Part shown: one piece after another, positions 4,132 to 64,000 of the stretch
How the letters are laid out: each line of letters starts with the position of its first letter
Position numbering within the stretch: the stretch's first letter is position 1
Assembly: GCA_022702545.1 (NCBI GenBank)
Contig: JAHRBC010000005.1
Location: 4,216,001-4,280,000 of the forward strand
Direction: 5' to 3'
Length of the DNA stretch: 64,000 bases
Origin: Phycomyces nitens
Taxonomy: Eukaryota; Mucoromycota; Mucoromycetes; Mucorales; Phycomycetaceae
The notes under the pieces: generated by a model
What the model saw: the letters and a program-made list of their open reading frames with translations, nothing else
Database searches by the model: none
What the model was told of the DNA's origin: nothing
Position numbers and translations under genes: made by a program

Positions 4132-4588
4132 ATGCCCCGTTCAGCTTGGAAAGGTCCTTTCTTCACCTCATTCCCTGGTCTCAGACAGGCAATTCAGAAT
4201 GGCACCCCCATTGCTACCCAGGGTCAGTAACATGATTTATAATAGTAATAATAACAATTAAACATTCTTGTTTGTTTAACGTTTAATTACACCTTTTATA
4301 TATATATATCTACGCACCATTCTCGACATTTTAAATCAACCAATTGCCATTTATCCATCAATTCCACCAACCACGCCTACATTTATAAACACCACAAACA
4401 AAACACCAAAACGAACAATAGCTCGTAGCTGCACCATCCTTCCATCCTTTGTCGGTTTGAAATTCCTCGTTCACAATGGAAAGGACTATCTCCCTGTTCA
4501 TGTTACTGAGGAGATGATTGGCCATAAGCTGGGAGAGTTTTCATTCACTCGCAAGCGTTTCTCTTATAGATTCACAAAGGCAAAGTAA
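4132..4588 (+). CDS. MRPS19: Mitochondrial small-subunit ribosomal protein uS19m
   Basis: Two exons, 4132-4222 and 4422-4588, joined across a 199-nt GT-AG intron in phase 1, give an 85-residue protein. It starts [19 protein letters not shown] and continues with [20 protein letters not shown], then the signature [18 protein letters not shown], ending FTKAK. This is the canonical uS19 fold, which binds 16S-type rRNA in the head of the small subunit next to uS13. The length and the MPRSxWKGPF start match the fungal mitochondrial form rather than the cytosolic uS19 (longer, eukaryotic type). The protein is basic and has no separate presequence, as usual for this family. Its 3' end faces the polyprenol reductase gene 208 bp away. 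Overlapping plus frames at 3945-4261 are read-throughs of exon 1 into the intron. Confidence 0.95.
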
Positions 4589-4796
4589 AGCTGAAACTAA
4601 AAAAAAAAAACAAAAATCAAGAGAGAAAAAAACATTAAGTGGACTAGAGTGGAATCGATTTTCCAAGTGTTTGTGCGTGTTTTATGGGTCTCTCGATTGA
4701 TATTATATCCAACAGAGTCAAAGAAATGGAGAAAGCGTGGACCTCTTTATATTTTTGATCAACACGAATGAATAAATAAATAAATAAATTAAAGAT

Positions 4797-5780
4797 TTAA
4801 TATATGTGGGGTAACAGGAGCGACCGAGATCGAGGGAATGCATCGATATATCTTTGACCAAATGTCCTTTGGTACCACTGTTCAGTCTCTCCAGCAGTAA
4901 CACCAAGATTGACAATCGTCCACACCAGCCCACACGTCAGGGTCCAGTTGTGTCCTCGGTAAAGAAGCCAAAGCGAAACATAGACCAAAATGTCGGCAAA
5001 ATAATGAGGAACAACCAGCATCTCAAACCAGTCTCCACGAGGAATCATATAGGCATTCTTGGTCTTTGGAGTGCGAAGGGATGCAAGAATCTTGTGGCAA
5101 GTGTGCTGGTGATGGGAAGCATAGAGGAACAATCCAATTGAAGGAATAGTCGTCCATGGGAGTGCAAAGGATGCTATAGACGTGTAAGCAAACTCGACTT
5201 GCCAATCCACATTCTACCATGTACCTTTTGCTGGCTGCCAGACTCCAAGATTAGCTGCACCTTCTAACCAGGTACCCAGTACCATGGCACCATAGAATCC
5301 AATTCCAGCCAAATAATGGCTAAAGTGCATACGGGCATTGGCAGAAGGACGCTCAATGACCAAGGATTCATATAGACGCCTTGACAGATGAAGAGTCATT
5401 ATGACCAGTCCAATTAAACATTCTCCAAGGCCAAGGTGTTGGCTGCCCTGAGGCGTATCCCACAGACGCAAGATGGTCAGTACTGGACCACACACTCTCC
5501 ATTGCAAGACTAGAGTGATTTCTACCAAGCATTCTATTGCAGCCACCAGCCCCACTGCGTAAAAGTGACAAAACCAAGTCTTTGAGACAGTTATTTTCTT
5601 GATCCAACGTGCCATTGCAGTCAATGGTTGATCTGCAGTGAGATCCAATTTTCCATATGCCAGTACAGATGAGCGCAATAGTGCAATGTGCTTTGATGCA
5701 AGACTCAATGCTGTCAATGTAATCAGACAGCCACAGAGGACTAGAGTCAAGTACATTGTTCTGTTTCGTACGGATTCCAA
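4797..5780 (-). CDS. DFG10: Polyprenol reductase homologue (Dfg10/SRD5A3 family) with an in-frame stop or unrecognised intron
   Basis: The family reduces the alpha-isoprene unit of polyprenol to make dolichol for N-glycosylation, in the ER membrane. One continuous frame of about 327 codons (human SRD5A3 has about 318) is interrupted once by TAG at 5216-5214. The N-terminal part has several membrane segments and KTWFCHFYAVGL. The C-terminal part has the diagnostic steroid-reductase block HHQHTCHKIL, then PRGDWFEMLVVPHYFADILV, and the closing EQWYQRTFG with FPRSRSLLLPHIY. The stop lies in a poorly conserved loop that is longer here than in human SRD5A3. Excising 42 or 45 nt as a GC-AG intron (donor GCTAAT or GCAGCT, acceptor GGTAG) would remove the stop and keep frame, but those donors are weak. 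Alternatives are a recent nonsense mutation, readthrough or a sequencing error. Family assignment is firm; integrity is uncertain. Confidence 0.85.
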
Positions 5781-19573: not shown

Positions 19574-22500
19574 TTAGTTTTTTGGTGGCCTTGACCTTGA
19601 GCTTTTGCGTATCCAAGGATGCTTCATTGCCTCTGTTGGCGATAGTCGATGTACGGGATCCCATTGAAGACAGCTGTCTATAAAATCAACAAAGTCCTCA
19701 TCGGTAGACTTCAAGACAACCGCCAGCTTCTTGGACCCAGGCTTCCGCTTGATGCCCTTGGAGTTTGGGAAGATGCGAGGGTTTCCATAAGAGTCTACAT
19801 CATATTATTATTATTATTATTATTTCATGGTAATTGTTAATGACATGTAAAATTATCCCGAATTAAATCTTTACCAAACAAGGTTTTGCGGCGCGTGCTA
19901 GTTTCCACGAGACGTTTGTCTGGCACTCCTTGAATCTCCATGATACAAGCCAGCTGGTCTTGCTCGTTCTCACCCGGGAAAAGCGGCTTTCCTGTAAAGA
20001 GCTCTGCCAATATACATCCCATACTCCACATGTCAATTGCACTGCTGTAGGGCAGTCCAAGCATTACTTCGGGTGACCGATAGAATCGACTCTGGATATA
20101 TGTGAACACTAGGAGGATATTAGCAAACCAAAGCATCTAAAGATCTTGTACCTTTTTCACTCTCTAGACATGAACTGCCGAAATCAATGACCTTGATGGT
20201 GCTTTTGGTAGGACATTTCAAGATTATATTCTATAATTACCAATGTTAAAAAGTGTTTCAAAAACATAAATAAAAATATAAATAAAGATTGATGCTATCT
20301 TGCCTCTGGTTTCAAATCACAATGGATAAGCTTGTGTTTCTTCAAGAGGACTAGGCAGTTCAAGATCTGTATTCCAAACCTTTTTTTAAAAAAGCCACAT
20401 TAGTTTCCGGTTTCTTGGTGGTCTTGGTTACCTTCTAATCAGGCCAATGCTGAACCCTTGGAATTGGCTACTCTTGAGAAAGTCATAGAGATTAAAACTT
20501 AGGCACTCAAACGCAATACACAAATGGTTTCGGAAATAAAAGTGGTTCAGCATTCGGACCATATTGTGCTCATCCTCAGGGTCCTGCCAACATCATGATG
20601 AGTTGATTTATATTGTTGTTGTTTTTTATTATTATTATATTATATTTTGGTTTATTTAATGGTGTATTAGAAGAACAAGAGAGATGAGAAAGACTTACCC
20701 ATCTGACTAGTTCTTCAAGTGTCTTGATCTCTACCAATGCCTGGGTGTGGTATTGAGGCATGTTTCGAATGATCTTGATAGCCACGGTTTGGCCGGTTTT
20801 GTGATCAAAGCATTTCACGACCTGTCCAAAAGAACCTCTTCCTAGACCACCAACTGCTTCATAGCGATACCCAAGATGATCCTTTTCGACAATATGGTAT
20901 TCCCCACGACCATCGTCATAGCCAAAATTGGAGTAGGACTGGCCAGGTGAAGCACGTCGTTTGTCAGCATGTGGCCCCACAAAATACACCTGTGAATACT
21001 CGAGGATCTCTTTGTGTTCAAAGGGAGACAAACTGTTTCGATAGAGTTTCAAAGCAGCTTTAGAACAACAACAAATAAACCAAAATATAATAATAATAAA
21101 AATAATAAAAATAATAACATTAGCCCATGGATCTCAAAAGATATCAATCGTCACTAGTTTTCTGCAATATTTATTTATTTGCTCTTGTTTGTTACCTTGA
21201 GGAGACATGGCAGGCCTCACCCCTTTTTCTTTCTCTTTTAACCGCGCCGACTGCTCGTTAGATTTCTGGCGATCGTGATCTGATTCGTGCCGTTGGTAAA
21301 GTCGAGTGACTTCTTCGCGTGCACTAGCTGACGTGCTTGTACTGCTATTCTCAACGTCTACTAATACCCCCACACTAGGATCTTCACTATCATTCCCATC
21401 TTTGGATTTTATTCCATGACCAGTATTCCAGCCGTCTCCATCGACCATCCCTTGCAGTCGGTCGTGCCATGATATTGCCTGGGATCCCTTGACTACCGTG
21501 TCTGGCTGGTGGAGGGGTATCAGCACACCCTGAGCAACCACAGGATTTATGCTGAGCTGACAGGACTTTTCGCGTTCTTTCCTAAACTGATCTTGAAGGA
21601 GGTCGTTGGCACTTGCACACGACGGTTTGCGCCCAAGTGCTGTAGAATGTACAGTAGAGGCAGTTGCAGAGGGGGTTGGTAACATTCCTGAAATGATGGG
21701 AATCGTGTCCAAGGATCCTTTGGAACTCGTGTGCCGACTGCGAGGAATATTGCTACGGGGCGTCTTTTGAGATGGACGAGGGGGTTGGGGCACAAGAGAG
21801 TCTTCGGCTGCCTTGGCTCGTCTGGGCGGTTTGGCAGACCGTTCGTTGTTTTCGTCCCATTGATTGATCATTGGGACATGCTCACTGGGAACCTTTGGTG
21901 TGTTTGGCTTGGGTTTTGGAAGAGGAATGCGTGTGAGAGGGGTCTTTGAAGGGTCCTTTTTGGTGTCTGGGGATGGTTGGCTGGCAAGGCTAGGACCCCA
22001 TTCGGATTGGCTTTCTCTCGAGGGTGCTGCTATTGAGCCAGAGGGAGACTTTGGAAAGTAAAGAAAGTGAATACCCATATTTCTCATACTAGAAATATCA
22101 TTCTTTAAATACAATCCATGGTGTATAAATACCTACTTTTTGAGATGAATGGGTACAGGTGTGAGAGGGAATCGTTTTGAGAAGTGCATCGATCATGCTG
22201 TCACTCTGCTGGATGTCAGTCTGCTTCTTACTAGCACCAGGTCTGATCATTGAACTCAATTTAATGTTCACCTGTGCAGGCATCTCCATGTCATCCTTGT
22301 CACATCTACAGCCGTCTTCCTCACACACAAGCAAGGGATCGAATTCGACTAGGTCTTTATTGGCCTTGCCGGTCAACAGAATTGGTTTTGCAGCCGTGGG
22401 TGGCGGTATAATAATATCTTCATCTGCTGTTTTCTTCCAGCCGAATTTTCCCATGGAAACCATTGAATTGGTCTTTAACGATCGATTGGACCTTGTTTTG

Positions 22501-23777
22501 GCCCGCACTGGCTTGTCGGACTCAATCTCTTCAGACTCTCCAGACTCGTATTCCTTGCCCTTGTTTAGGCTTGCGGCTGGAGATGTAGAAGAGTGGGGTG
22601 GTGAGTGGGCTGGTGCACAGGTGATACTGGTGCGACGAGAGGACGAATACACTTTGGGGGTGGGCAGTTTTGTCTGTAACTTGGATACCGTCTTCTTTGG
22701 CCGATTAACAAGAGGTTTCTGTGTGTCAATGGCGGAGATGGGAGGAAGACGTCCGGAATTACTACTGTCCAGGTTTGGTTTTTGTGTGTGGGTGGGTTCG
22801 ACCACCTGATTGTCGAGAGATACACGTGTTGGAGCTAGATTGTGAGGGTTTGGGTTTGGTGATTGAAGATGTATAGAATGGGCTGTAGTAAGCGGATCAA
22901 ATTGCTGGACCATTGATGACATGGTATTTTTGTCTCCTTTGGATTTGTTCATTTCGGGGTATATTGGTCGAGTTGACAAGGGTTCTAGGGCGTGTATGAG
23001 GTCCAAAGTCTCTTTTTCGGCCAATGTCCTAACGCCATAATCAGTCTGGTCCATCGATGCCAGTGCCTCTGATATGCTGTCGGTTTCTAGCCCGGTTGAA
23101 GCGGCAGACTGTCCATAGTCTATTGAAAGCAATGACTTTTCATGATGATGAAGCACATCGTACAATGTGTCCCCATCTAACAAATGTGTTTCTCGCACGG
23201 CACTTTTAGGCTCGTAGGTTGAGTCTGAGCTTTGGGAAGCATATGTGGTTCCAGAAGATCCACTGCTAAGCCTCAGGCTATTGTTCTGCACCTCGGCCGG
23301 ACTAAGCTCAGCTGGTTCTGCGACTGTTGGTGGTAGTGGTAGTGGTAGTGGCAATGGTGGTGGTGGTGGTGGTGATGCGGTTGATGGGCTAGCTAAAGAT
23401 ACAGCTTTATTCTGAGTTGGCCAAAAGGTCTCTCCAGAGGGCCAGGCAGAAGTATAGAGATAGTCGTTTTGGTCAGAAAAGGTCTCTAGAGATTGTTCTT
23501 GATCCTGCTGGTCTTGGTTTGGCCGAGAGCTGAGCACATGGTCTACATAATCGATATTCCAGTCTACTTGTGGACTTGCATGTCTAGGAGTGTTTGTGTT
23601 TGATTCCACATCTACCAATACGGGGTTTGATGGCTGCATCCAGGCAGGATGACTTTGTCTGGGCCATTCTATAGACTCGAGTGCCCATTGACGATCAATG
23701 TAATCTGGTGCTGATTCCATCCATTCGGTGGTGGTGGTGTCTGGACAAGGGTCGGAAAATGGAGATTGATTGGACAT
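19574..23777 (-). CDS. DYRK-family protein kinase (Pom1/DYRK2-like), 1204 residues
   Basis: Eight exons (23777-22137, 22048-21196, 21057-20699, 20583-20432, 20379-20304, 20230-20152, 20108-19875, 19794-19574) stay in phase throughout. The first 830 residues are low-complexity, rich in Ser/Pro/Thr, with a poly-Pro run. The DYRK homology box [20 protein letters not shown] precedes the kinase domain (about 895-1190). That domain has [20 protein letters not shown], the class-specific HCDLKPEN catalytic loop, DFGSSCLE and the activation-loop Tyr in [12 protein letters not shown], which DYRKs autophosphorylate during translation. Fungal members (Pom1, Ppk5, Yak1 relatives) control polarity, size and growth. 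The DH-box and HCD motif favour the Pom1/DYRK2 branch over Yak1. Intron 5 (20303-20231) is GC-AG, splitting KPE from NIIL. The long N-terminus is probably regulatory and may contain unrecognised introns. Confidence 0.92.
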
Positions 23778-24600
23778 TTTCTAAGAGATTAGATCAACAA
23801 AGACACCATTTCTCTCTTTATATGGTTGTAAAGCCATTTTTTTCATAAATATACTTCTAGTGTACTCTATGCACAAAGAATATGTCTTTACCTTTTTGTC
23901 TTTTTTGTATTGGGTTTAATGATGTTCTATGTCTAGGGAGAAGCAAGCCTTTGAGAATTTAGGGCTGGTTATATAAAATATATAAATATATATATAAATA
24001 TATAAATATTTTTTTTTAAAGGGTATAAATATAAAGAAGAGTGGACTAAAATATATATATATATATATATATCTAAAAGATGGCTGCGATGATACTATTA
24101 CATTTTTATTTTATATTTTATTTTATTTTATTTTTTTAATTTTTAATTTTTTTTTTGAATTCTTTTTTTGGATGTTTTAAAATGCGTTGTTATAGGCAAC
24201 CAAATTGCCAATTATATATGTATGCAATTTTTATATGCAGTACTTTTTATATATATATATAATCAATTGCCATGGCAACAAATTAAAGGCTAGCGTATAG
24301 AATGTTGGTTGACAGGCCAAACAATACAAATGATCGATTTTCTTTTGCAAAAAGAGGATCGTCCAAGAAGGATCACCTAATTGAATACCCGACCTCTTTT
24401 TGCTTTTGCGTCACTCTTTGGGATGACATCCAAAAAAAAAAAAAGGTACTGAAAGGAGACAATGAAGAGGATAAAACGATTTGATTGGAAGTACATCGGC
24501 TTGGCGTCACTCTTTTTTTAAAAAACAAAATAAAATATAATATAGAATAAATAATAAATAAAAAGACATCTCAGACCCACTTTATCTTTTGCAAGTGTAC
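23778..24600. other. AT-rich upstream region of the kinase gene
   Basis: Contains TA repeats (23980-24075) and TTTTA/TTTAT runs around 24100-24170 but no gene-like frame. It probably holds the promoters of the kinase (minus) and of the small membrane protein (plus). Confidence 0.4.
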
Positions 24601-38971: not shown

Positions 38972-39455
38972 GGAAGTATTGGGTATGTAGAATAAATAAA
39001 AAGGAGCCAAAGGAATAATCTGGATTTATTTTTTTGGGTGAATTTTACAAAAGAATGATGCTGCTGCTGATGCTGATGCCAATGATTAAGGGTCAGAAGG
39101 ATTGAATTCTTGGTTTTCTCTCTGCAATCGAATCGATCGATGGATCGTTCCTGCAGTGCGGCTGATGAAAAATCACGCGAAATATTGGGGTTGATGGTGT
39201 GGTGTTTAGAAATGTCATTAGGGCTCTAATGACCTCTTTATTGAAACCTGTTTCAATTTATGCCTACAAATCAGTCTATATTTCACACTGAATTTATTCA
39301 TACAATAAAAAAAAAAGTGGTTTAAAGCCTCACGTGGAAAACTGGACACGGTGCAGTTAGCCCAGCCCAGTCCAGTCCAGGCTGGAGAGAGAAAAACAAT
39401 TAGCCAAATTATCAATTCTCAAACACTTTTTAAGCGGTTGGAATCCATCATTCTC
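38972..39455. promoter_or_regulatory. Divergent promoter of the membrane-protein and F-box genes
   Basis: Short intergenic region. It includes GCTGATGCTGATGCC repeats near 39065 and CCAGTCCAGTCCAG near 39367. If translation starts at the upstream in-frame codon at 39351, part of this would be coding, but the F-box begins at the ATG at 39456. Confidence 0.4.
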
Positions 39456-41300
39456 ATGAGAGCTTCCGAATTATCCTTTGAGATTCTGTCTTTAATCGCA
39501 TCCCTGCTCACAAACAAAGATAAATTATGTTGTACTTTGGTTTGTAATGCCTGGAAAGCTCCGTTTCAAGATGCCTTGTGGAGCAGAATAGAGATTAGCG
39601 GCTATGAAAAGTTGGATTCATTGTTTAATGTGCTTTTGGAAGCAAACATCTACCTCGCAAACGGTCATCGAGTACGAGAACTTCTATTCAACAAGGGAGT
39701 AGCAACAAGCGAAGAACAGCTCTTGACGACCCAAAAGTATTTCCGCAACATTAGTTATCTAAAGATTCGACTAGGCAACCTAAGTTATAGCCATCCAGCT
39801 GTGGTGCCTGCCGACTGGAGTCTCTGGGGGAAACTGACGCGTCTAGAGATCTATGTTTCTGGCTTAAATTCTGAAAACGAAGCTCAGGACATACTCCATG
39901 TCATCTCTTCACTGCCTGTTCTCGAAAGATTTGATTTGACAGACAATTATTATACGCGAAGGAAACCATACACTTTTCAGGATTTTGAGAGCTTTCATAG
40001 ATATTCACCGCGACTAAAGTATCTAGCTATGGATCTTTTAACTACAACAATCTCAATTGAAGATATCCTACAGGCAGATATAGTGCCAACCACCGTCCTC
40101 ACAACAGTAAACCTGTTCAATCGAACAATGGATCTTGGGTGGCTATATTACTGTGCACTCAAGTATCCCAATGTACACACCTTTGGATGGAAGATGGATT
40201 GTAGACAGGATCCAGCACAGGTCCAAGACCAAGACCAAGACCAAATCATGTCCAGATTTGCTGCCCTTGAGTGCTTCTTTCCACACCTAGACACCCTGTT
40301 TGTCAGAGATATCCTAAAGATTGACTTGCGACACACAATATTTTGGAAACTTTTATGTCAGTTTGGTGTATTTCCAAGGAATCTATACTACGATCTTGAA
40401 TGGATAGATAGCACGCCATACCAATCCAGAAGAACCTTGGGTAATGGAATGTACTCTTGTCCAAATCATCTCAAGACCCTCTCACTCACAAGTTTTAACC
40501 ACAATTTCCTTCTCACTTACTCACTCTTGACCCTGGGCGAGTTCCCCCAGCTTGTTGATCTGCATATCATGTTAAATCGAGCAAGCATATTCTTTGACGT
40601 GCTCCTCGACCAATGTCTCTCTCTCAAAACTCTCAGGTTGGACAATTGTCTTATTCTCTTTGATTCAACCTCGAGGAACTGTGTGAAGCATGGATTACGC
40701 CGGCTACAGCTGAGCCATCTAAAGGTCGATCCGAGAACCTTTGATTACATTTCTCTTCATTGTCAAGAGTTGAGCCATCTCTACCTAAGCGAGGTCAGAG
40801 TAATAGGATCAATGTCCAAAGATACTGGCGCCCTGTATCTCAATATGTCCTATACTCGGCTCAAATTATTAAAGCTGGAAAATGTGCATTTCTATTCTTC
40901 TAAAACCGAATATGACAAGGATCTCATCAAACTACTTTGCATCAAACAAAGCGAGATATCTACCATTAGTGGCCTCGATAATCCAGGATCCGTTGAACGT
41001 CGTCTGATATCTGTACTGGAGGGACTCTGGCTTCACTATTATCAAAGTCGATCCGAAGGAAAACTTGGCGCAAAAATACGAATATTACATGCAGACGAAA
41101 TCGAGTATGCAAAAAGATACTTTGTGTCTTTCCGAAACAAAATGACTGTTCTTGCCGATTCTTACATGACTTGGAACGAACTTGGACCAGTTCAATCTAG
41201 CTGGAAGGACGACCTTTGTCAAGGACATGTGGAAATATCCTGTAGATATCTAGAGGAGCTGTCAATCGACAATGTACTGTTTTCCAAAGCCATCATATAG
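39456..41300 (+). CDS. F-box protein with leucine-rich-repeat-like C-terminus
   Basis: An intronless frame of 614 residues from the ATG at 39456 (649 if read from the earlier in-frame start at 39351). The N-terminus is an F-box, LSFEILSLIASLLTNKDKLC followed by CTLVCNAWKAPFQDALWSRI, which binds Skp1 in an SCF ubiquitin ligase. The remainder has irregular Leu-rich motifs (for example LKYLAMDLL, LRRLQLSHLKVD, LSHLYLSEVRVI) typical of the large F-box/LRR families expanded in Mucoromycota, where the repeats select the substrate. The substrate is not predictable. The lack of introns contrasts sharply with its neighbours. The gene is convergent with SPT7, 196 bp away. Confidence 0.85.
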   Translation: MRASELSFEILSLIASLLTNKDKLCCTLVCNAWKAPFQDALWSRIEISGYEKLDSLFNVLLEANIYLANGHRVRELLFNKGVATSEEQLLTTQKYFRNISYLKIRLGNLSYSHPAVVPADWSLWGKLTRLEIYVSGLNSENEAQDILHVISSLPVLERFDLTDNYYTRRKPYTFQDFESFHRYSPRLKYLAMDLLTTTISIEDILQADIVPTTVLTTVNLFNRTMDLGWLYYCALKYPNVHTFGWKMDCRQDPAQVQDQDQDQIMSRFAALECFFPHLDTLFVRDILKIDLRHTIFWKLLCQFGVFPRNLYYDLEWIDSTPYQSRRTLGNGMYSCPNHLKTLSLTSFNHNFLLTYSLLTLGEFPQLVDLHIMLNRASIFFDVLLDQCLSLKTLRLDNCLILFDSTSRNCVKHGLRRLQLSHLKVDPRTFDYISLHCQELSHLYLSEVRVIGSMSKDTGALYLNMSYTRLKLLKLENVHFYSSKTEYDKDLIKLLCIKQSEISTISGLDNPGSVERRLISVLEGLWLHYYQSRSEGKLGAKIRILHADEIEYAKRYFVSFRNKMTVLADSYMTWNELGPVQSSWKDDLCQGHVEISCRYLEELSIDNVLFSKAII

Positions 41301-55664: not shown

Positions 55665-55860
55665 CGTAAAATACCGCGACGAGGAATAATCACGAAATTG
55701 AAATGGAACATTCACGACATTGAAACTGTCATTTCACGAAATAAGAAGTTACATTGACGAGATACGATTCAATACTGGGTATTTGTTAGACACCGGACAG
55801 AAACTCACAATTAAAATATCCGATAAAATCAAAACGTCGTGCCCGCTTAAAAACTTCGTG
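55665..55860. mobile_element. Possible partial MITE-related sequence
   Basis: Starts with CGTAAAATACCGCG, identical to 14 bp of the 7671-7995 MITE terminus, followed by repeated CACGA(A/C)ATT words (CACGAAATTG, CACGACATTG, CACGAAATAA). No second terminus could be found, so this may be a truncated relative or a chance match. Confidence 0.3.
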
Positions 55861-56004
55861 CCATTAACATTAGCCTTATTCTAATATATAAAATATTTAT
55901 TCTATTTACATACCAACACTCAATCAATACTGAGTGTCCGAAAATGCTGGAGTTCTTTTGGCTTGATTTAAATTGAATAAAGACAAATATACAACAGAGC
56001 ACCT

Positions 56005-59000
56005 CAGCTACTATATAATCTGAAAACATTGTTAGTAGTGCAAACCAGGTTGAATACGATCGACTTGCCTTATCCATATGGGACTGCTCCAATAAGACAA
56101 AACGTGGATAGTATACAAAATGAAAGCAATGTTAGCAGTGCAGGCAAGTTTGCTTTGGATTCACTTACATTTCTACTCTAATCAGACACCAACTCTTACT
56201 ATTATTCAAATATCAATTTCTAATGTACATTACACTTACCTTGACGCCCACCACCATCCCCGATCTTACCAACCGGAAATAAGCTACTACAAAATATGTA
56301 ATCCATGTAAGTCATTGCGTCCTCATCACAATCAATTCACTTACCATTCTAATCTACTAGAATAGCTACACAAAAGATGATCTAATCTATTCTAGACGTT
56401 AAATACATTATTAGCAATACGAACAAATTTGAGTGCGATTACCTTACCTTTCTAATATACTCGGACAGCCGCTCTAAATAATATCTACACTACAATATCT
56501 AATCTACCTTCCACCTACCTTGGAGCCCACCACCATCCCCGATCTTGCCAACCGGAACTAAGCTACAACTAAACTAAAATCCAAGCTAACAGTATGTCCT
56601 TGATCACATTCGATTGACCTACCATTCTATGCTACTCGGACGGCTATACTATGTGACAATCAACGCTACTATTTAGAGTGGAGGCATTGTTAGTAGTGCT
56701 TGTTAAGTTTGATTAGGATTGACTTACCATTCTACTCTATTCGGACGGCTGTCCTAATTAATATCTACACTACAATATCTAATCTACTTTCCACCTACCT
56801 CGGAGCCCACCACCATCCCCGATTCTTACCAACCGGAACTAATCTACAACTAAACTGAAATCCTAGTTAGCAGTGTGTCCTTGATCGCATTCAATTTACT
56901 TACCTGCTAATCTACTCGGACGTCTAAACTACGGGACAGGCTACGCTACTATATAGAGTGGAGTCATTGTTAACAGGGCTGTCAAGTTTGATTGGGATAG
57001 ACTTACCTGCTAATCTACTCGGACGTCTAAACTACGGGACAGGCTACGCTACTATATAGAGTGGAGGCATTGTTAACAGGGTTGTCCAGTTTGATTGGGA
57101 TAGACTTACCTTTCTACTCTACTCGGACGGCTACTCTAAACAATATCTAAACTACAATTTCTAATCTACTTTCCACCTACCTTGGAGCCCACCACCATCC
57201 CCGATTCTTCCCAACCGGAACAAAGCTACACTAAACTGAAATCCAAGTTAGCAGTGTGCTCTTGATCGCATTCAATTTACTTACCTGCTAATCTACTCGG
57301 ACGGCTAAACTACGGGACAGGCTATGCTACTATATAGAGTGGAGTCATTGTTAACAGGGCTGTCCAGTTTGATTGGGATAGACTTACCTTTCTACTCTAC
57401 TCGGACGGCTACTCTAAACGATATCTAAACTACAATTTCTAATCTACTTTCCACCTACCTTGGAGCCCACCACCATCCCCGATTCTTCCCAACCGGAACA
57501 AAGCTACACTAAACTGAAATCCAAGTTAGCAGTGTGTTTTTGATCGCATTCAATTTACTTACCTGCTAAACTACTCGGACGGCTAAACTACGGGACAGGC
57601 TACGCTACTATATAGAGTGGAGTCATTTTTAGCAGTGCTGTCAAGTTTGATTGGGATAGACTTACCTACTAATCTACTCGGACAGCTAAACTACTCGGAC
57701 GGCTATGCTACTATATAGAGTGGAGTCATTGTTAACAGTGCTTGTCAAGTTTGATTGGGATAGACTTACCTTTCTACTCTACTCGGACGGCTACTCTAAA
57801 CAATATCTAAACTACAATTTCTAATCTACTTTCCACCTACCTTGGAGCCCACCACCATCCCCGATTCTTCCCAACCGGAACAAAGCTACACTAAACTGAA
57901 GTCCAAGTTAGCAGTGTGTCCTCGATCGCATTCAATTTACTTACCTGCTAATCTACTCGGACGTCTAAACTACGGGACAGGCTACGCTACTATATAGAGT
58001 GGAGTCATTGTTAACAGTGCTTGTCAAGTTTGATTGGGATAGACTTACCTGCTAATCTACTCGGACAGCTAAACTACTCGGACAGCTATGCTACTATATA
58101 GAGTGGAGTCATTGTTAATAGTGCTTGTCAAGTTTGATTGGGATAGACTTACCTGCTAATCTACTCGGACAGCTAAACTACTCGGACGGCTATGCTACTA
58201 TATAGAGTGGAGTCATTGTTAGCAGTGCTGTCAAGGTTGATTGGGATAGACTTACCTTTCTACTCTACTCGGACGGCTACTCTAAACAATATCTAAACTA
58301 CAATTTCTAATCTACTTTCCACCTACCTTGGAGCCCACCACCATCCCCGATTCTTCCCAACCGGAACTAATCTACAACTAAATGAAATCAAAGTTAGCAG
58401 TGTGTCCTTGATCGCATTCAATTTACTTACCTGCTAATCTACTCGGACGTCTAAACTACGGGACAGGCTATGCTACTATATAGAGTGGAGTCATTTTTAG
58501 CAGTGCTGTCAAGGTTGATTGGGATAGACTTACCTTTCTACTCTACTCGGACGGCTACTCTAAACAATATCTAAACTACAATTTCTAATCTACTTTCCAC
58601 CTACCTTGGAGCCCACCACCATCCCCGATTCTTCCCAACCGGAACAAAGCTACACTAAACTGAAATCCAAATTAGCAGTGTGTCTTTGATCGCATTCAAT
58701 TTACTTACCTGCTAAACTACTCGGACGGCTAAACTACGGGACAGGCTACGCTACTATATAGAGTGGAGTCATTGTTAACAGTGCTTGTCAAGTTTGATTG
58801 GGATAGACTTACCTTTCTACTCTACTCGGACGGCTACTCTAAACAATATCTAAACTACAATTTCTAATCTACTTTCCACCTACCTTGGAGCCCACCACCA
58901 TCCCCGATTCTTCCCAACCGGAACAAAGCTACACTAAACTGAAATCCAAATTAGCAGTGTGTCTTTGATCGCATTCAATTTACTTACCTGCTAAACTACT

Positions 59001-62000
59001 CGGACGGCTAAACTACGGGACAGGCTACGCTACTATATAGAGTGGAGTCATTGTTAACAGTGCTTGTCAAGGTTGATTGGGATAGACTTACCTTTCTACT
59101 CTACTCGGACGGCTACTCTAAACGATATCTAAACTACAATTTCTAATCTACTTTCCACCTACCTTGGAGCCCACCACCATCCCCGATTCTTCCCAACCGG
59201 AACAAAGCTACACTAAACTGAAATCCTAGTTAGCAGTGTGTTTTTGATCGCATTCAATTTAGTTACCTGCTAATCTACTCGGACGTCTAAACTACGGGAC
59301 AGGCTACGCTACTATATAGAGTGGAGACATTGTTAGCAGTGATGTCAAGTTTGATTGGGATAGACTTACCTACTAATCTACTCGGACAGCTAAACTACTC
59401 GAACGGCTATGCTACTATATAGAGTGGAGTCATTGTTAATAGTGCTTGTCAAGTTTGATTGGGATAGACTTACCTGCTAATCTACTCGGACAGCTAAACT
59501 ACTCGGACGGCTATGCTACTATATAGAGTGGAGTCATTGTTAGCAGTGCTGTCAATGTTGATTGGGATAGACTTACCTTTCTACTCTACTCGGACGGCTA
59601 CTCTAAACAATATCTAAACTACAATTTCTAATCTACTTTCCACCTACCTTGGAGCCCACCACCATCCCCGATTCTTCCCAACCGGAACTAATCTACAACT
59701 AAACTGAAATCCAAGTTAGCAGTGTGTTTTTGATCGCATTCAATTTACTTACCTGCTAAACTACTCGGACGGCTAAACTACGGGACAGGCTACGCTACTA
59801 TATAGAGTGGAGTCATTTTTAGCAGTGCTGTCAAGTTTGATTGGGATAGACTTACCTACTAATCTACTCGGACAGCTAAACTACTCGGACGGCTATGCTA
59901 CTATATAGAGTGGAGTCATTGTTAACAGTGCTTGTCAAGTTTGATTGGGATAGACTTACCTTTCTACTCTACTCGGACGGCTACTCTAAACAATATCTAA
60001 ACTACAATTTCTAATCTACTTTCCACCTACCTTGGAGCCCACCACCATCCCCGATTCTTCCCAACCGGAACAAAGCTACACTAAACTGAAATCCAAGTTA
60101 GCAGTGTGCTCTTGATCGCATTCAATTTACTTACCTGCTAATCTACTCGGACGGCTAAACTACGGGACAGGCTATGCTACTATATAGAGTGGAGTCATTG
60201 TTAACAGGGCTGTCCAGTTTGATTGGGATAGACTTACCTTTCTACTCTACTCGGACGGCTACTCTAAACAATATCTAAACTACAATTTCTAATCTACTTT
60301 CCACCTACCTTGGAGCCCACCACCATCCCCGATTCTTCCCAACCGGAACAAAGCTACATTAAACTGAAATCCAAGTTAGCAGTGTGTCTTTGATCGCATT
60401 CAATTTACTTACCTGCTAAACTACTCGGACGGCTAAACTACGGGACAGGCTACGCTACTATATAGAGTGGAGTCATTGTTAACAGTGCTTGTCAAGTTTG
60501 ATTGGGATAGACTTACCTTTCTACTCTACTCGGACGGCTACTCTAAACAATATCTAAACTACAATTTCTAATCTACTTTCCACCTACCTTGGAGCCCACC
60601 ACCATCCCCGATTCTTCCCAACCGGAACAAAGCTACACTAAACTGAAATCCAAGTTAGCAGTGTGTTTTTGATCGCATTCAATTTAGTTACCTGCTAATC
60701 TACTCGGACGGCTAAACTACGGGACAGGCTACGCTACTATATAGAGTGGAGGCATTGTTAGCAGTGATGTCAAGTTTGATTGGGATAGACTTACCTTTCT
60801 ACTCTACTCGGACGGCTACTCTAAACAATATCTAAACTACAATTTCTAATCTACTTTCCACCTACCTTGGAGCCCACCACCATCCCCGATTCTTCCCAAC
60901 CGGAACAAAGCTACACTAAACTGAAATCCAAGTTAGCAGTGTGTTTTTGATCGCATTCAATTTAGTTACCTGCTAATCTACTCGGACGGCTAAACTACGG
61001 GACAGGCTACGCTACTATATAGAGTGGAGGCATTGTTAGCAGTGATGTCAAGTTTGATTGGGATAGACTTACCTACTAATCTACTCGGACAGCTAAACTA
61101 CTCGGACGGCTATGCTACTATATAGAGTGGAGTCATTGTTAACAGTGCTTGTCAAGTTTGATTGGGATAGACTTACCTGCTAATCTACTCGGACAGCTAA
61201 ACTACTCGGACGGCTATGCTACTATATATGGTGGAGTCATTGTTAGCAGTGCTGTCAAGGTTGATTGGGATAGACTTACCTTTCTACTCTACTCGGACGG
61301 CTACTCTAAACAATATCTAAACTACAATTTCTAATCTACTTTCCACCTACCTTGGAGCCCACCACCATCCCCGATTCTTCCCAACCGGAACAAAGCTACA
61401 TTAAACTGAAATCCAAGTTAGCAGTGTGTTTTTGATCGCATTCAATTTACTTACCTGCTAAACTACTCGGACGGCTAAACTACGGGACAGGCTATGCTAC
61501 TATATAGAGTGGAGTCATTTTTAGCAGTGCTGTCAAGTTTGATTGGGATAGACTTACCTACTAATCTACTCGGACAGCTAAACTACTCGGACGGCTATGC
61601 TACTATATAGAGTGGAGTCATTGTTAACAGTGCTTGTCAAGTTTGATTGGGATAGACTTACCTTTCTACTCTACTCGGACGGCTACTCTAAACAATATCT
61701 AAACTACAATTTCTAATCTACTTTCCACCTACCTTGGAGCCCACCACCATCCCCGATTCTTCCCAACCGGAACAAAGCTACATTAAACTGAAATCCAAGT
61801 TAGCAGTGTGTTTTTGATCGCATTCAATTTACTTACCTGCTAAACTACTCGGACGGCTAAACTACGGGACAGGCTATGCTACTATATAGAGTGGAGTCAT
61901 TTTTAGCAGTGCTGTCAAGGTTGATTGGGATAGACTTACCTTTCTACTCTACTCGGACGGCTACTCTAAACAATATCTAAACTACAATTTCTAATCTACT

Positions 62001-63930
62001 TTCCACCTACCATGGAGCCCACCACCATCCCCGATTCTTCCCAACCGGAACAAAGCTACACTAAACTGAAATCCAAGTTAGCAGTGTGTTTTTGATCGCA
62101 TTCAATTTACTTACCTGCTAAACTACTCGGACGGCTAAACTACGGGACAGGCTACGCTACTATATAGAGTGGAGTCATTGTTAACAGTGCTTGTCAAGTT
62201 TGATTGGGATAGACTTACCTTTCTACTCTACTCGGACGGCTACTCTAAACAATATCTAAACTACAATTTCTAATCTACTTTCCACCTACCTTGGAGCCCA
62301 CCACCATCCCCGATTCTTCCCAACCGGAACTAATCTACAACTAAACTGAAATCAAAGTTAGCAGTGTGTCCTTGATCGCATTCAATTTACTTACCTGCTA
62401 ATCTACTAGGACGTCTAAACTACGGGACAGGCTACGCTACTATACAGAGTGGAGGCATTGTTAACAGGGCTGTCCAGTTTGATTGGGATAGACTTACCTT
62501 TCTACTCTACTCGGACGGCTACTCTAAACAATATCTAAACTACAATTTCTAATCTACTTTCCACCTACCTTGGAGCCCACCACCATCCCCGATTCTTCCC
62601 AACCGGAACAAAGCTACACTAAACTGAAATCCAAGTTAGCAGTGTGTTTTTGATCGCATTCAATTTACTTACCTGCTAAACTACTCGGACGGCTAAACTA
62701 CGGGACAGGCTATGCTACTATATAGAGTGGAGTCATTTTTAGCAGTGCTGTCAAGGTTGATTGGGATAGACTTACCTTTCTACTCTACTCGGACGGCTAC
62801 TCTAAACAATATCTAAACTACAATTTCTAATCTACTTTCCACCTACCATGGAGCCCACCACCATCCCCGATTCTTCCCAACCGGAACAAAGCTACACTAA
62901 ACTGAAATCCAAGTTAGCAGTGTGTTTTTGATCGCATTCAATTTAGTTACCTGCTAATCTACTCGGACGGCTAAACTACGGGACAGGCTATGCTACTATA
63001 TAGAGTGGAGTCATTTTTAGCAGTGCTGTCCAGTTTGATTGGGATAGACTTACCTTTCTACTCTACTCGGACGGCTACTCTAAACAATATCTAAACTACA
63101 ATTTCTAATCTACTTTCCACCTACCATGGAGCCCACCACCATCCCCGATTCTTCCCAACCGGAACAAAGCTACACTAAACTGAAATCCAAGTTAGCAGTG
63201 TGTTTTTGATCTCATTCAATTTACTTACCTGCTAAACTACTCGGACGGCTAAACTACGGGACAGGCTATGCTACTATATAGAGTGGAGTCATTTTTAGCA
63301 GTGCTGTCCAGTTTGATTGGGATAGACTTACCTTTCTACTCTACTCGGACGGCTACTCTAAACAATATCTAAACTACAATTTCTAATCTACTTTCCACCT
63401 ACCATGGAGCCCACCACCATCCCCGATTCTTCCCAACCGGAACAAAGCTATACTAAACTGAAGTCCAAGTTAGCAGTGTGTCCTCGATCGCATTCAATTC
63501 ACTTACCTGCTAATCTACTCGGACGTCTAAACTACGGGACAGGCTACGCTACTATATAGAGTGAAGGCATTGTTAACAGTGCTGTAAAGTGTGATTGGGA
63601 TAGACTTACCTGCTAATCTACTCGGACAGCTAAACTACTCGGACGGTCTACGCTACTATATAGAGTGGAGTCATTGTTAACAGTGCTGTCAAGTGTGATT
63701 AGGATAGGCTTACCTGCTAATCTACTCGGACAGCTAAACTACGGGACGGCCTATGCTACTATGTAGAGTGGAGGCATTGTTAGCAGAGCGGTCAAGGTTG
63801 ATTGGGATAGACTTACCTTTCTACTCTACTCGGACGGCTAGTCTAAACAATATCTACACTTCAATTTTTAATCTACTTTCCACCCACCTTGGAGCCCACC
63901 ACCATCCCCGTCCTTCCAACCAAAGTGATC
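56005..63930 (-). repeat. 8-kb tandem array of nested, intron-bearing modules
   Basis: The sequence CCCACCACCATCCCCG occurs 24 times, the first (56247) and last (63895) in diverged units. Successive cores are about 278 bp (15 intervals), about 382 bp (4) or about 485 bp (4) apart, so the unit is 278 bp plus zero, one or two copies of a module of about 103 bp. Read on the minus strand, each unit holds CAG/GTAAGTAAATTG...CTGCTAACTTGGATTTCAG (49 nt, for example 62672-62624) and AAAG/GTAAGTCTATCC...GACTCCACTCTATATAG (about 59 nt). These look like full spliceosomal introns. The 103-bp module is one such intron plus a segment of about 42 nt. Every reading frame of the exon-like parts has TAG stops and the units differ by single-base indels, so it is not protein-coding now. 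It could be a non-coding RNA gene, a decayed exon-repeat gene or a satellite. Units at the left edge are the most diverged. Confidence 0.93.
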
Positions 63931-64000
63931 AACTGACTAGGACTGGAAATGCCGCTGAAAACTGGCAATGGATCTAAAACTAAAAAAATAACACGGCTTA
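63931..64000. other. Right edge of the array
   Basis: After the last core copy the sequence leaves the repeat consensus (only a faint match to the CGGAACAAAGCTACACTAAACTG segment). If the array is transcribed leftward, the promoter lies to the right of the window. Confidence 0.5.

Follow-up and report, generated by a model that had tools for sequence, protein, structure and literature searches.

What kind of sequence is a tandem array in which the units appear to carry introns of their own? Such an array lies at the right end of a stretch of Phycomyces nitens DNA (64,000 nt, positions 4,216,001 to 4,280,000 of contig JAHRBC010000005.1), called the window here, which is part of contig C7 in a genome of 49 Mb and 11 contigs. 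A stretch of CCT-zeta chaperonin from this genome shows 98% identity to Phycomyces blakesleeanus NRRL 1555 over 442 residues, and at least some of the residues that differ recur in the second gene copy, which most likely points to a Phycomyces other than P. blakesleeanus. A first-pass annotation had described the array as duplicated exon-intron modules that may be transcribed leftward into a non-coding RNA. Our analysis favors, with moderate confidence, a similar answer: the window would hold the 3' part of one copy of a dispersed, non-coding, intron-rich gene, whose spliced RNA would offer UAG and G-rich sites to proteins.

Ordered splice signals in the array

The minus strand from 56005 to 63980 is made up of exon-intron modules consisting of exon E1 (126 nt), intron I1 (58-59 nt), exon E2 (45 nt) and intron I2 (49 nt). 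Tandem Repeats Finder reported periods of 278, 103/104, 382 and 486 nt; one E1-I1-E2-I2 unit accounts for the 278-nt period, and the 382- and 486-nt periods are consistent with added I1-E2 steps of 103-104 nt. These units and insertions, together with a number of aligned introns that varies from 0 to 60 between loci, agree with the proposed growth by duplication of exon-intron modules.

A search for the pattern GTAAGT-N20-45-CTAAC-N5-30-AG gave 71 matches in the window, compared with 0.81 expected (0 of 100 shuffles reached 71). The array contains 68 of them, many being nested readings of one intron; all lie on the minus strand, as the annotation had stated, and the plus strand has none. A profile search identified 60 introns in the window copy (37 I1 and 23 I2), and donor, branch TAA and acceptor AG were found at the aligned places in 35 of the 37 and 20 of the 23. 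The branch pentamer lies 11 nt from the intron end in I2 and 20 nt in I1, so the sizes and spacings given earlier were also confirmed. In one copy, with its donor at 58430, TTTCAG has become TTTCAT and an AG follows four bases further on.

For a comparison across the genome, 663 raw profile matches (305 + 358) were reduced to the near-full-length, nonoverlapping matches in array loci with a score above 10. This left 291 intron copies (188 I1 and 103 I2) from 10 loci; the eleventh array locus, C1d, has an E1 core only. GTAAGT is present in 252 and CTAAC in 221 of these copies. The arrangement typical of U2-type introns, donor GT/GC, branch TAA(C) and acceptor AG in order, was retained in 263 of the 291 (167/188 I1 and 96/103 I2), and the stretch from branch to intron end was free of AG in 53 of 55 window introns, as counted with a pattern ending at the first listed acceptor. 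Chaperonin-gene introns of the same genome served as a comparison: a candidate was found in 19 of 20 gaps, 17 of the 19 being 55-144 nt long and the other two (38 and 240 nt) doubtful. The donors of these candidates, which were picked by a score favoring GTAAGT-like donors, are looser than those of the array.

Constraint on splice signals

Changes per column were obtained as parsimony counts on a tree of the unique copies, with P values from column permutation. Signal columns had changed less than interior columns in both I1 (2.86 vs. 6.66, P = 0.002) and I2 (1.07 vs. 2.69, P = 0.016), a 2.3- to 2.5-fold difference. Such constraint relative to the interior is characteristic of U2-type introns, and one of the two parts of the refuting outcome named in the annotation, splice-site bases mutating as fast as their neighbors, was thus not obtained. 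The I1 donor (2.33), branch (3.60, the first base accounting for 13 of its 18 changes) and acceptor (2.67) were all slower than the interior, and the exon flanks showed 2.44 changes upstream and 5.57 downstream. The corresponding values for I2 were 0.50, 1.80 and 1.00, with 1.63 and 1.80 in the exon flanks. Even the 19 most diverged I1 copies (>30%; mean interior divergence 39%) all keep GT/GC and TAA, and their donors differ at 9.6% of positions.

The tail of the array provides a further observation. A search with the intron body, leaving out the donor, found the last tail unit in eight loci at ≥85% identity, two of which (C1a and C1b) are near-copies, and all eight have GCAAGT as the donor. 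The earlier claim that GT is retained in every copy is therefore incorrect, because this unit (56011-56068) begins with GCAAGT in the window. GCAAGT is the usual donor of GC-AG introns, and a candidate of this type also occurs among the chaperonin-gene introns. The penultimate tail unit, seen in eight loci, has lost its AG; the first AG past the branch is at +44/+45 in seven of them and at +28 in one, leaving at least 42 AG-free bases after the branch in 7/8. The GCAAGT donor in all eight last units and the long AG-free stretch after the loss of AG favor real splicing.

UAG and G-rich motifs of the predicted exons

TAG occurs 434 times in the 4131 nt of predicted exon in the window and twice in its intron interiors, which exclude the donor hexamer and the last three bases. 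Over all loci there are 798 TAG in 6033 nt of E2 and 17 in 13325 nt of intron interior. The 281 between-intron stretches include 160 profile-defined E2 exons (38-52 nt), in which the 18 TAG columns had 1.28 changes and the 27 other columns 4.48 (P = 0.0003). Six or seven TAG are present in 142 of these copies (exactly six in 126), and eight copies have one or none. A second set of 134 E2 copies, cut out by a pattern demanding splice-like flanks, gave 0.72 vs. 3.41 changes (P = 0.0001). Thus, the rate of change in TAG columns is three to five times below that of the rest of E2, and E2 has the dense, conserved short motif in predicted mature RNA that defines an architectural repeat RNA. Fifteen of the 281 stretches are only 20-29 nt long and may be micro-exons or degenerate units.

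In E1, the slowest part is a G-rich core. Among the 114 copies that passed a length and score filter, the core had 1.33 changes per column, compared with 2.47 before and 2.68 after it. A possible second donor within E1 reads GTAGGT in 78 copies, another GT hexamer in 16 and TTAGCT in 20. A relative of the core, GGGGTTGGTGGAGGG, is present in the alpha exons upstream, and a degenerate 15-mer covering both has 139 matches in the genome and none in the reversed control.

The array is best read as coding for a non-coding, multi-exon RNA transcribed leftward, since TAG is confined to exons, all frames are closed and the region 5' of the array has its own splice-like signals. A protein-coding gene split into many small exons can be practically dismissed: short open frames in the 5' part resemble one another between loci, yet stops and shifts interrupt them in many loci and they are not kept, and the spliced array exons contain 142-152 stops per frame, with a longest open run of 26 codons.

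A dispersed family with arrays at its 3' end

The annotation had proposed searching the genome for other arrays, and the modules indeed occur on seven contigs in all. The 5' region, represented by an 801-bp piece, has near-full matches at no fewer than 22 loci and partial matches at six further places; scoring covered 40 of 65 candidates, which makes 22 a lower bound. Within this dispersed family, the array forms the 3' part. Of 21 loci read downstream, 11 have at least one E1 core and 10 have alpha modules, with no E1/E2 array in these 10 within the 4 kb read. The array loci carry 60, 52, 51, 45, 34, 33, 5, 4, 4, 3 and 0 introns, so that module number differs widely within one genome and six long arrays stand beside many short family members. 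Two array loci on contig C1 (L016 and L018, at 8.56 and 8.61 Mb) are about 56 kb apart and share a 2.2-kb tail at 98.7% identity, which indicates a recent duplication.

Alpha modules are also repeated. At locus L025 (1100-1600), four alpha exon-intron modules of about 130 nt are arranged head to tail. Because this locus has no E1/E2 array, module duplication seems to have occurred more than once in the family. Whether the array members have a single origin or several is shown neither way by the tree of 21 loci: the array label needs five changes (32 of 500 shuffles were as low) and single-change trees made up 0% of 200 bootstraps, but the well-supported branches force only one change.

The gene carrying the window array appears to begin past the right edge of the window, because the sequence at 63980-64000 looks like the end of another intron upstream. 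Mean pairwise identity within the 5' region is roughly even, from 0.84 to 0.93 by segment. A structured 5' RNA was considered on account of three hairpins in a conserved 5' block (the first occurring in 20 of 21 loci, with exact copies of the second in 7 and of the third in 14), and it was rejected for lack of useful covariation. In locus L021, the CTTTAG/CTAAAG hairpin found in 20/21 loci lies upstream of the alpha exons (4265-5060 in transcript orientation), together with repeated TTGATGAAAG words.

Alternative explanations

Several observations weigh against a spliced RNA under selection. The aligned acceptor AG is gone in 10 of the 19 most diverged I1 copies and kept in 9, and the four I1 copies at 20-30% divergence retain GT/GC in three, TAA in three and AG in two. 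The five I2 copies above 20% divergence retain GT in all, TAA in one and AG in none (above 30%, 4/4, 1/4 and 0/4; the single copy at 20-30% keeps GT only). Column permutation, applied here to parsimony counts, is a rough test. The commonest E1 and E2 together contain 17 TAG, a number reached by 0.05% of 2000 dinucleotide shuffles, but the shuffles average 11.4, so composition explains much of the excess. In the TAG-rich second half of E1, the TAG columns are not significantly slower than the others (2.33 vs. 2.89, P = 0.18). The 5' region also lacks a gene-like profile, as predicted exon 1 (identity 0.873) is less conserved than the following intron (0.925), and folding its alignment revealed no notable covariation, with at most three double-change cells in the ten best windows.

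The alternative that survives best is a neutral satellite derived from an intron-containing gene, in which the signals were inherited, stay similar through unequal exchange and gene conversion, and are now silent. The loss of the aligned AG in many of the most diverged copies fits this explanation, as do the near-identical units, the coexistence of long arrays with many short members, the roughly uniform identity of the 5' region and the retrotransposon sequence at the left boundary of most loci. However, homogenization acts on whole units and would not be expected to favor the donor, branch and TAG columns within them, and the diverged I1 copies of the tail have GT/GC and TAA in 19 of 19. We consider such a satellite unlikely, and a selected, spliced non-coding RNA clearly more likely than inert repeats.

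The boundary sequence is a long terminal repeat (LTR) of a Ty3/gypsy element that encodes reverse transcriptase, integrase and a chromodomain, and it raises the question of whether the family is a non-autonomous mobile element spread by that element, with the exon array as cargo. All 11 array loci have the left LTR (inverted in one), as do 8 of 9 alpha-only loci tested, in full or in part (inverted in three). The copies are dispersed and their left flanks mostly differ, although C9 and C10 share theirs. Downstream LTR-like stretches were found in array loci C1a and C1b, which are near-copies. Three of the 10 loci with alpha modules only also have such a stretch, namely L026, L030 (inverted) and L031 (direct). 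In C1a and C1b, however, these stretches are only 71-75% alike with the left LTRs, and no such stretch was found in the other nine array loci, a pairing of the LARD or TRIM type being judged here on LTRs. The coding strand of the gypsy element runs opposite to the array, the left LTR is found in both orientations, and mobility accounts for the spread but not for the constraint on splice signals. Taken together, these points make a mobile element improbable.

The LTR marks the left edge of most family members in either orientation (L035, 134-407 and 5241-5526; L021, 2911-3172 in transcript orientation), and it occurs at many other places in the genome, with 546 first-look candidates. A MULE transposase domain (PF10551) is encoded at L014:1-1284 on the plus strand, and related sequence flanks the array on either side at C10 and C9. 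MULE transposase sequence near C6, C9 and C10, and farther off at C7a, was considered as a part of the family and judged to be a neighbor, because a comparison of 18 kb next to the window copy gave no match to this sequence.

In Cryptococcus, engagement of transposon transcripts by the spliceosome feeds RNA interference, and fungi of the group to which Phycomyces belongs possess RNA interference. A locus producing small interfering RNA in this way would suit the repetitive surroundings of the array. The introns, with their GTAAGT donors and CTAAC branches, look optimal rather than prone to stalling, and the retained exon motifs would be needless for silencing, which makes this explanation very unlikely.

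A host gene for intron-encoded small nucleolar RNA (snoRNA), as in the mammalian Bsr and SNHG14 arrays, would have the same plan of tandem exon-intron modules in a non-coding gene. We rejected it as scarcely credible, because the introns are only about 48-59 nt long, one of 291 has box C followed by box D, change is fastest in the intron interiors, and the 64-kb window has no Rfam match at the gathering score.

Proposed function and features of the window

The spliced non-coding RNA that we favor could have arisen as follows. The last exon-intron modules would have been multiplied by tandem duplication in the window member and five other long members, and unequal exchange between modules would preserve the splice phase. 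Transcription would proceed leftward, probably by RNA polymerase II, and removal of about 60 short introns would yield a long RNA of E1 and E2 exons, with one G-rich core per E1 and six UAG in fixed positions per E2. The UAG-rich exons of the family are predicted, probably correctly, to bind an RNA-binding protein many times over, the RNA acting as a sponge or scaffold with many UAG (and G-rich) sites. A multivalent UAG scaffold is the most likely function, a suggestion that we make with less certainty than that of a spliced RNA.

The predicted features are listed in Table 1. Part or all of the tail past the last intron is found in seven other array loci. Words resembling GGCACGACGTTT lie just downstream of the array end, at 55831-55862 on the minus strand of the window and, in both orientations, at about 5740-6110 of L023 (transcript orientation), and perhaps represent another repeat family. 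Elsewhere in the window, a long open frame at 22098-23780 (minus strand) has no Pfam match, and another at 39309-41300 (plus strand) has only an F-box match below the curated cut-off.

Table 1. Predicted features of the array copy in the window
Feature	Position	Strand	Basis
Apparent end of upstream alpha-type intron, acceptor TTTTTTTAG	63980..64000	-	Sequence; alignment of the upstream part (in L009) with 20 other loci
Predicted E1-like exon, first in the array copy	63817..63979	-	Sequence; E1 profile match C7b_8061
Homogeneous array part (E1-I1-E2-I2 and extra I1-E2 steps)	56905..63840 (limits approximate)	-	Tandem Repeats Finder and segmentation
First I1 intron, 58 nt, GTAAGT ... CTAAC ... 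ACATAG	63759..63816	-	Profile and donor-branch-acceptor pattern
I1 intron, example, 58 nt, GTAAGT ... CTAAC ... TATATAG	58198..58255	-	Pattern and segmentation
E2 exon, example, 45 nt	58153..58197	-	Sequence, segmentation, both E2 copy sets
I2 intron, example, 49 nt, GTAAGT ... CTAAC ... TTTCAG	57514..57562	-	Pattern and segmentation
E1 exon, example, 126 nt, G-rich core then TAG-rich half	57388..57513	-	Sequence, segmentation, E1 profile
G-rich core of E1, example (GGTTGG...CCAAG), slowest-changing E1 part	57459..57494	-	1.33 changes per column
Possible second donor within E1, GTAGGT	57453..57458	-	E1 copy comparison
Tail intron without AG at the usual place, predicted to run to CAG 47 nt past the branch	56084..56168	-	Eight loci
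Last tail intron, GC-AG type, GCAAGT ... CTAAC ... TATATAG	56011..56068	-	Donor-free intron-body search
Tail past the last intron, alike with other loci	55876..56010	-	Alignment with C1a tail to about 55876

Comparison with known systems

More tentatively, the array may represent a class of fungal RNA built from a satellite selected as an exon-intron array, in which removal of dozens of tiny introns joins short UAG-locked exons into a multivalent RNA with a valency set by the module copy number. If so, unequal exchange could shift the valency of the RNA without harm to the splice pattern. An array with constrained exon motifs and splice signals would show splicing and satellite growth jointly building a multivalent RNA. 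The family also makes the gain and loss of introns by tandem duplication testable in one genome, as it offers copies of many ages, a GC-AG donor and acceptor loss. No title or abstract opening among the papers listed in our literature searches describes this array family, a result that leaves out most subscription journals and is thus no proof that the family is unpublished.

Among non-coding genes, tandem exon-intron arrays are known from hosts of intronic snoRNA. The rat Bsr locus reportedly consists of tandemly repeated introns of a non-coding RNA gene, and the introns of Bsr and SNHG14 (SNORD115/116) host genes carry C/D snoRNA. The P. nitens array resembles them as a non-coding gene of tandem exon-intron modules. 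Unlike them, it has introns of 49-59 nt with ordered C/D boxes in 1/291 and the fastest change in their interiors, and it is the exon motifs that are kept.

In Drosophila hsr-omega, an intron-bearing 5' part is followed by tandem units of 280 nt that span about 5 to 15 kb, and the nuclear RNA gathers many heterogeneous nuclear ribonucleoproteins in omega speckles (PMC9865238). The array shares this layout of tandem units (278 nt here) downstream of a 5' part. It differs in the two predicted introns of each unit, whereas the accessible text mentions no introns in the hsr-omega repeat (PMC9865238), and in its number of loci, with one gene in Drosophila and more than 20 dispersed loci here.

The short-tandem-repeat RNA PNCTR gathers PTBP1, its dense motifs holding many protein copies (PMC6224606). 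The array likewise has a high density of short motifs, for which binding is predicted. In contrast, PNCTR is made by RNA polymerase I and has pyrimidine motifs instead of UAG (PMC6224606). UAG is the core recognized by Musashi proteins (PMC9287312), and this core would be the point of likeness with the UAG motifs of the array.

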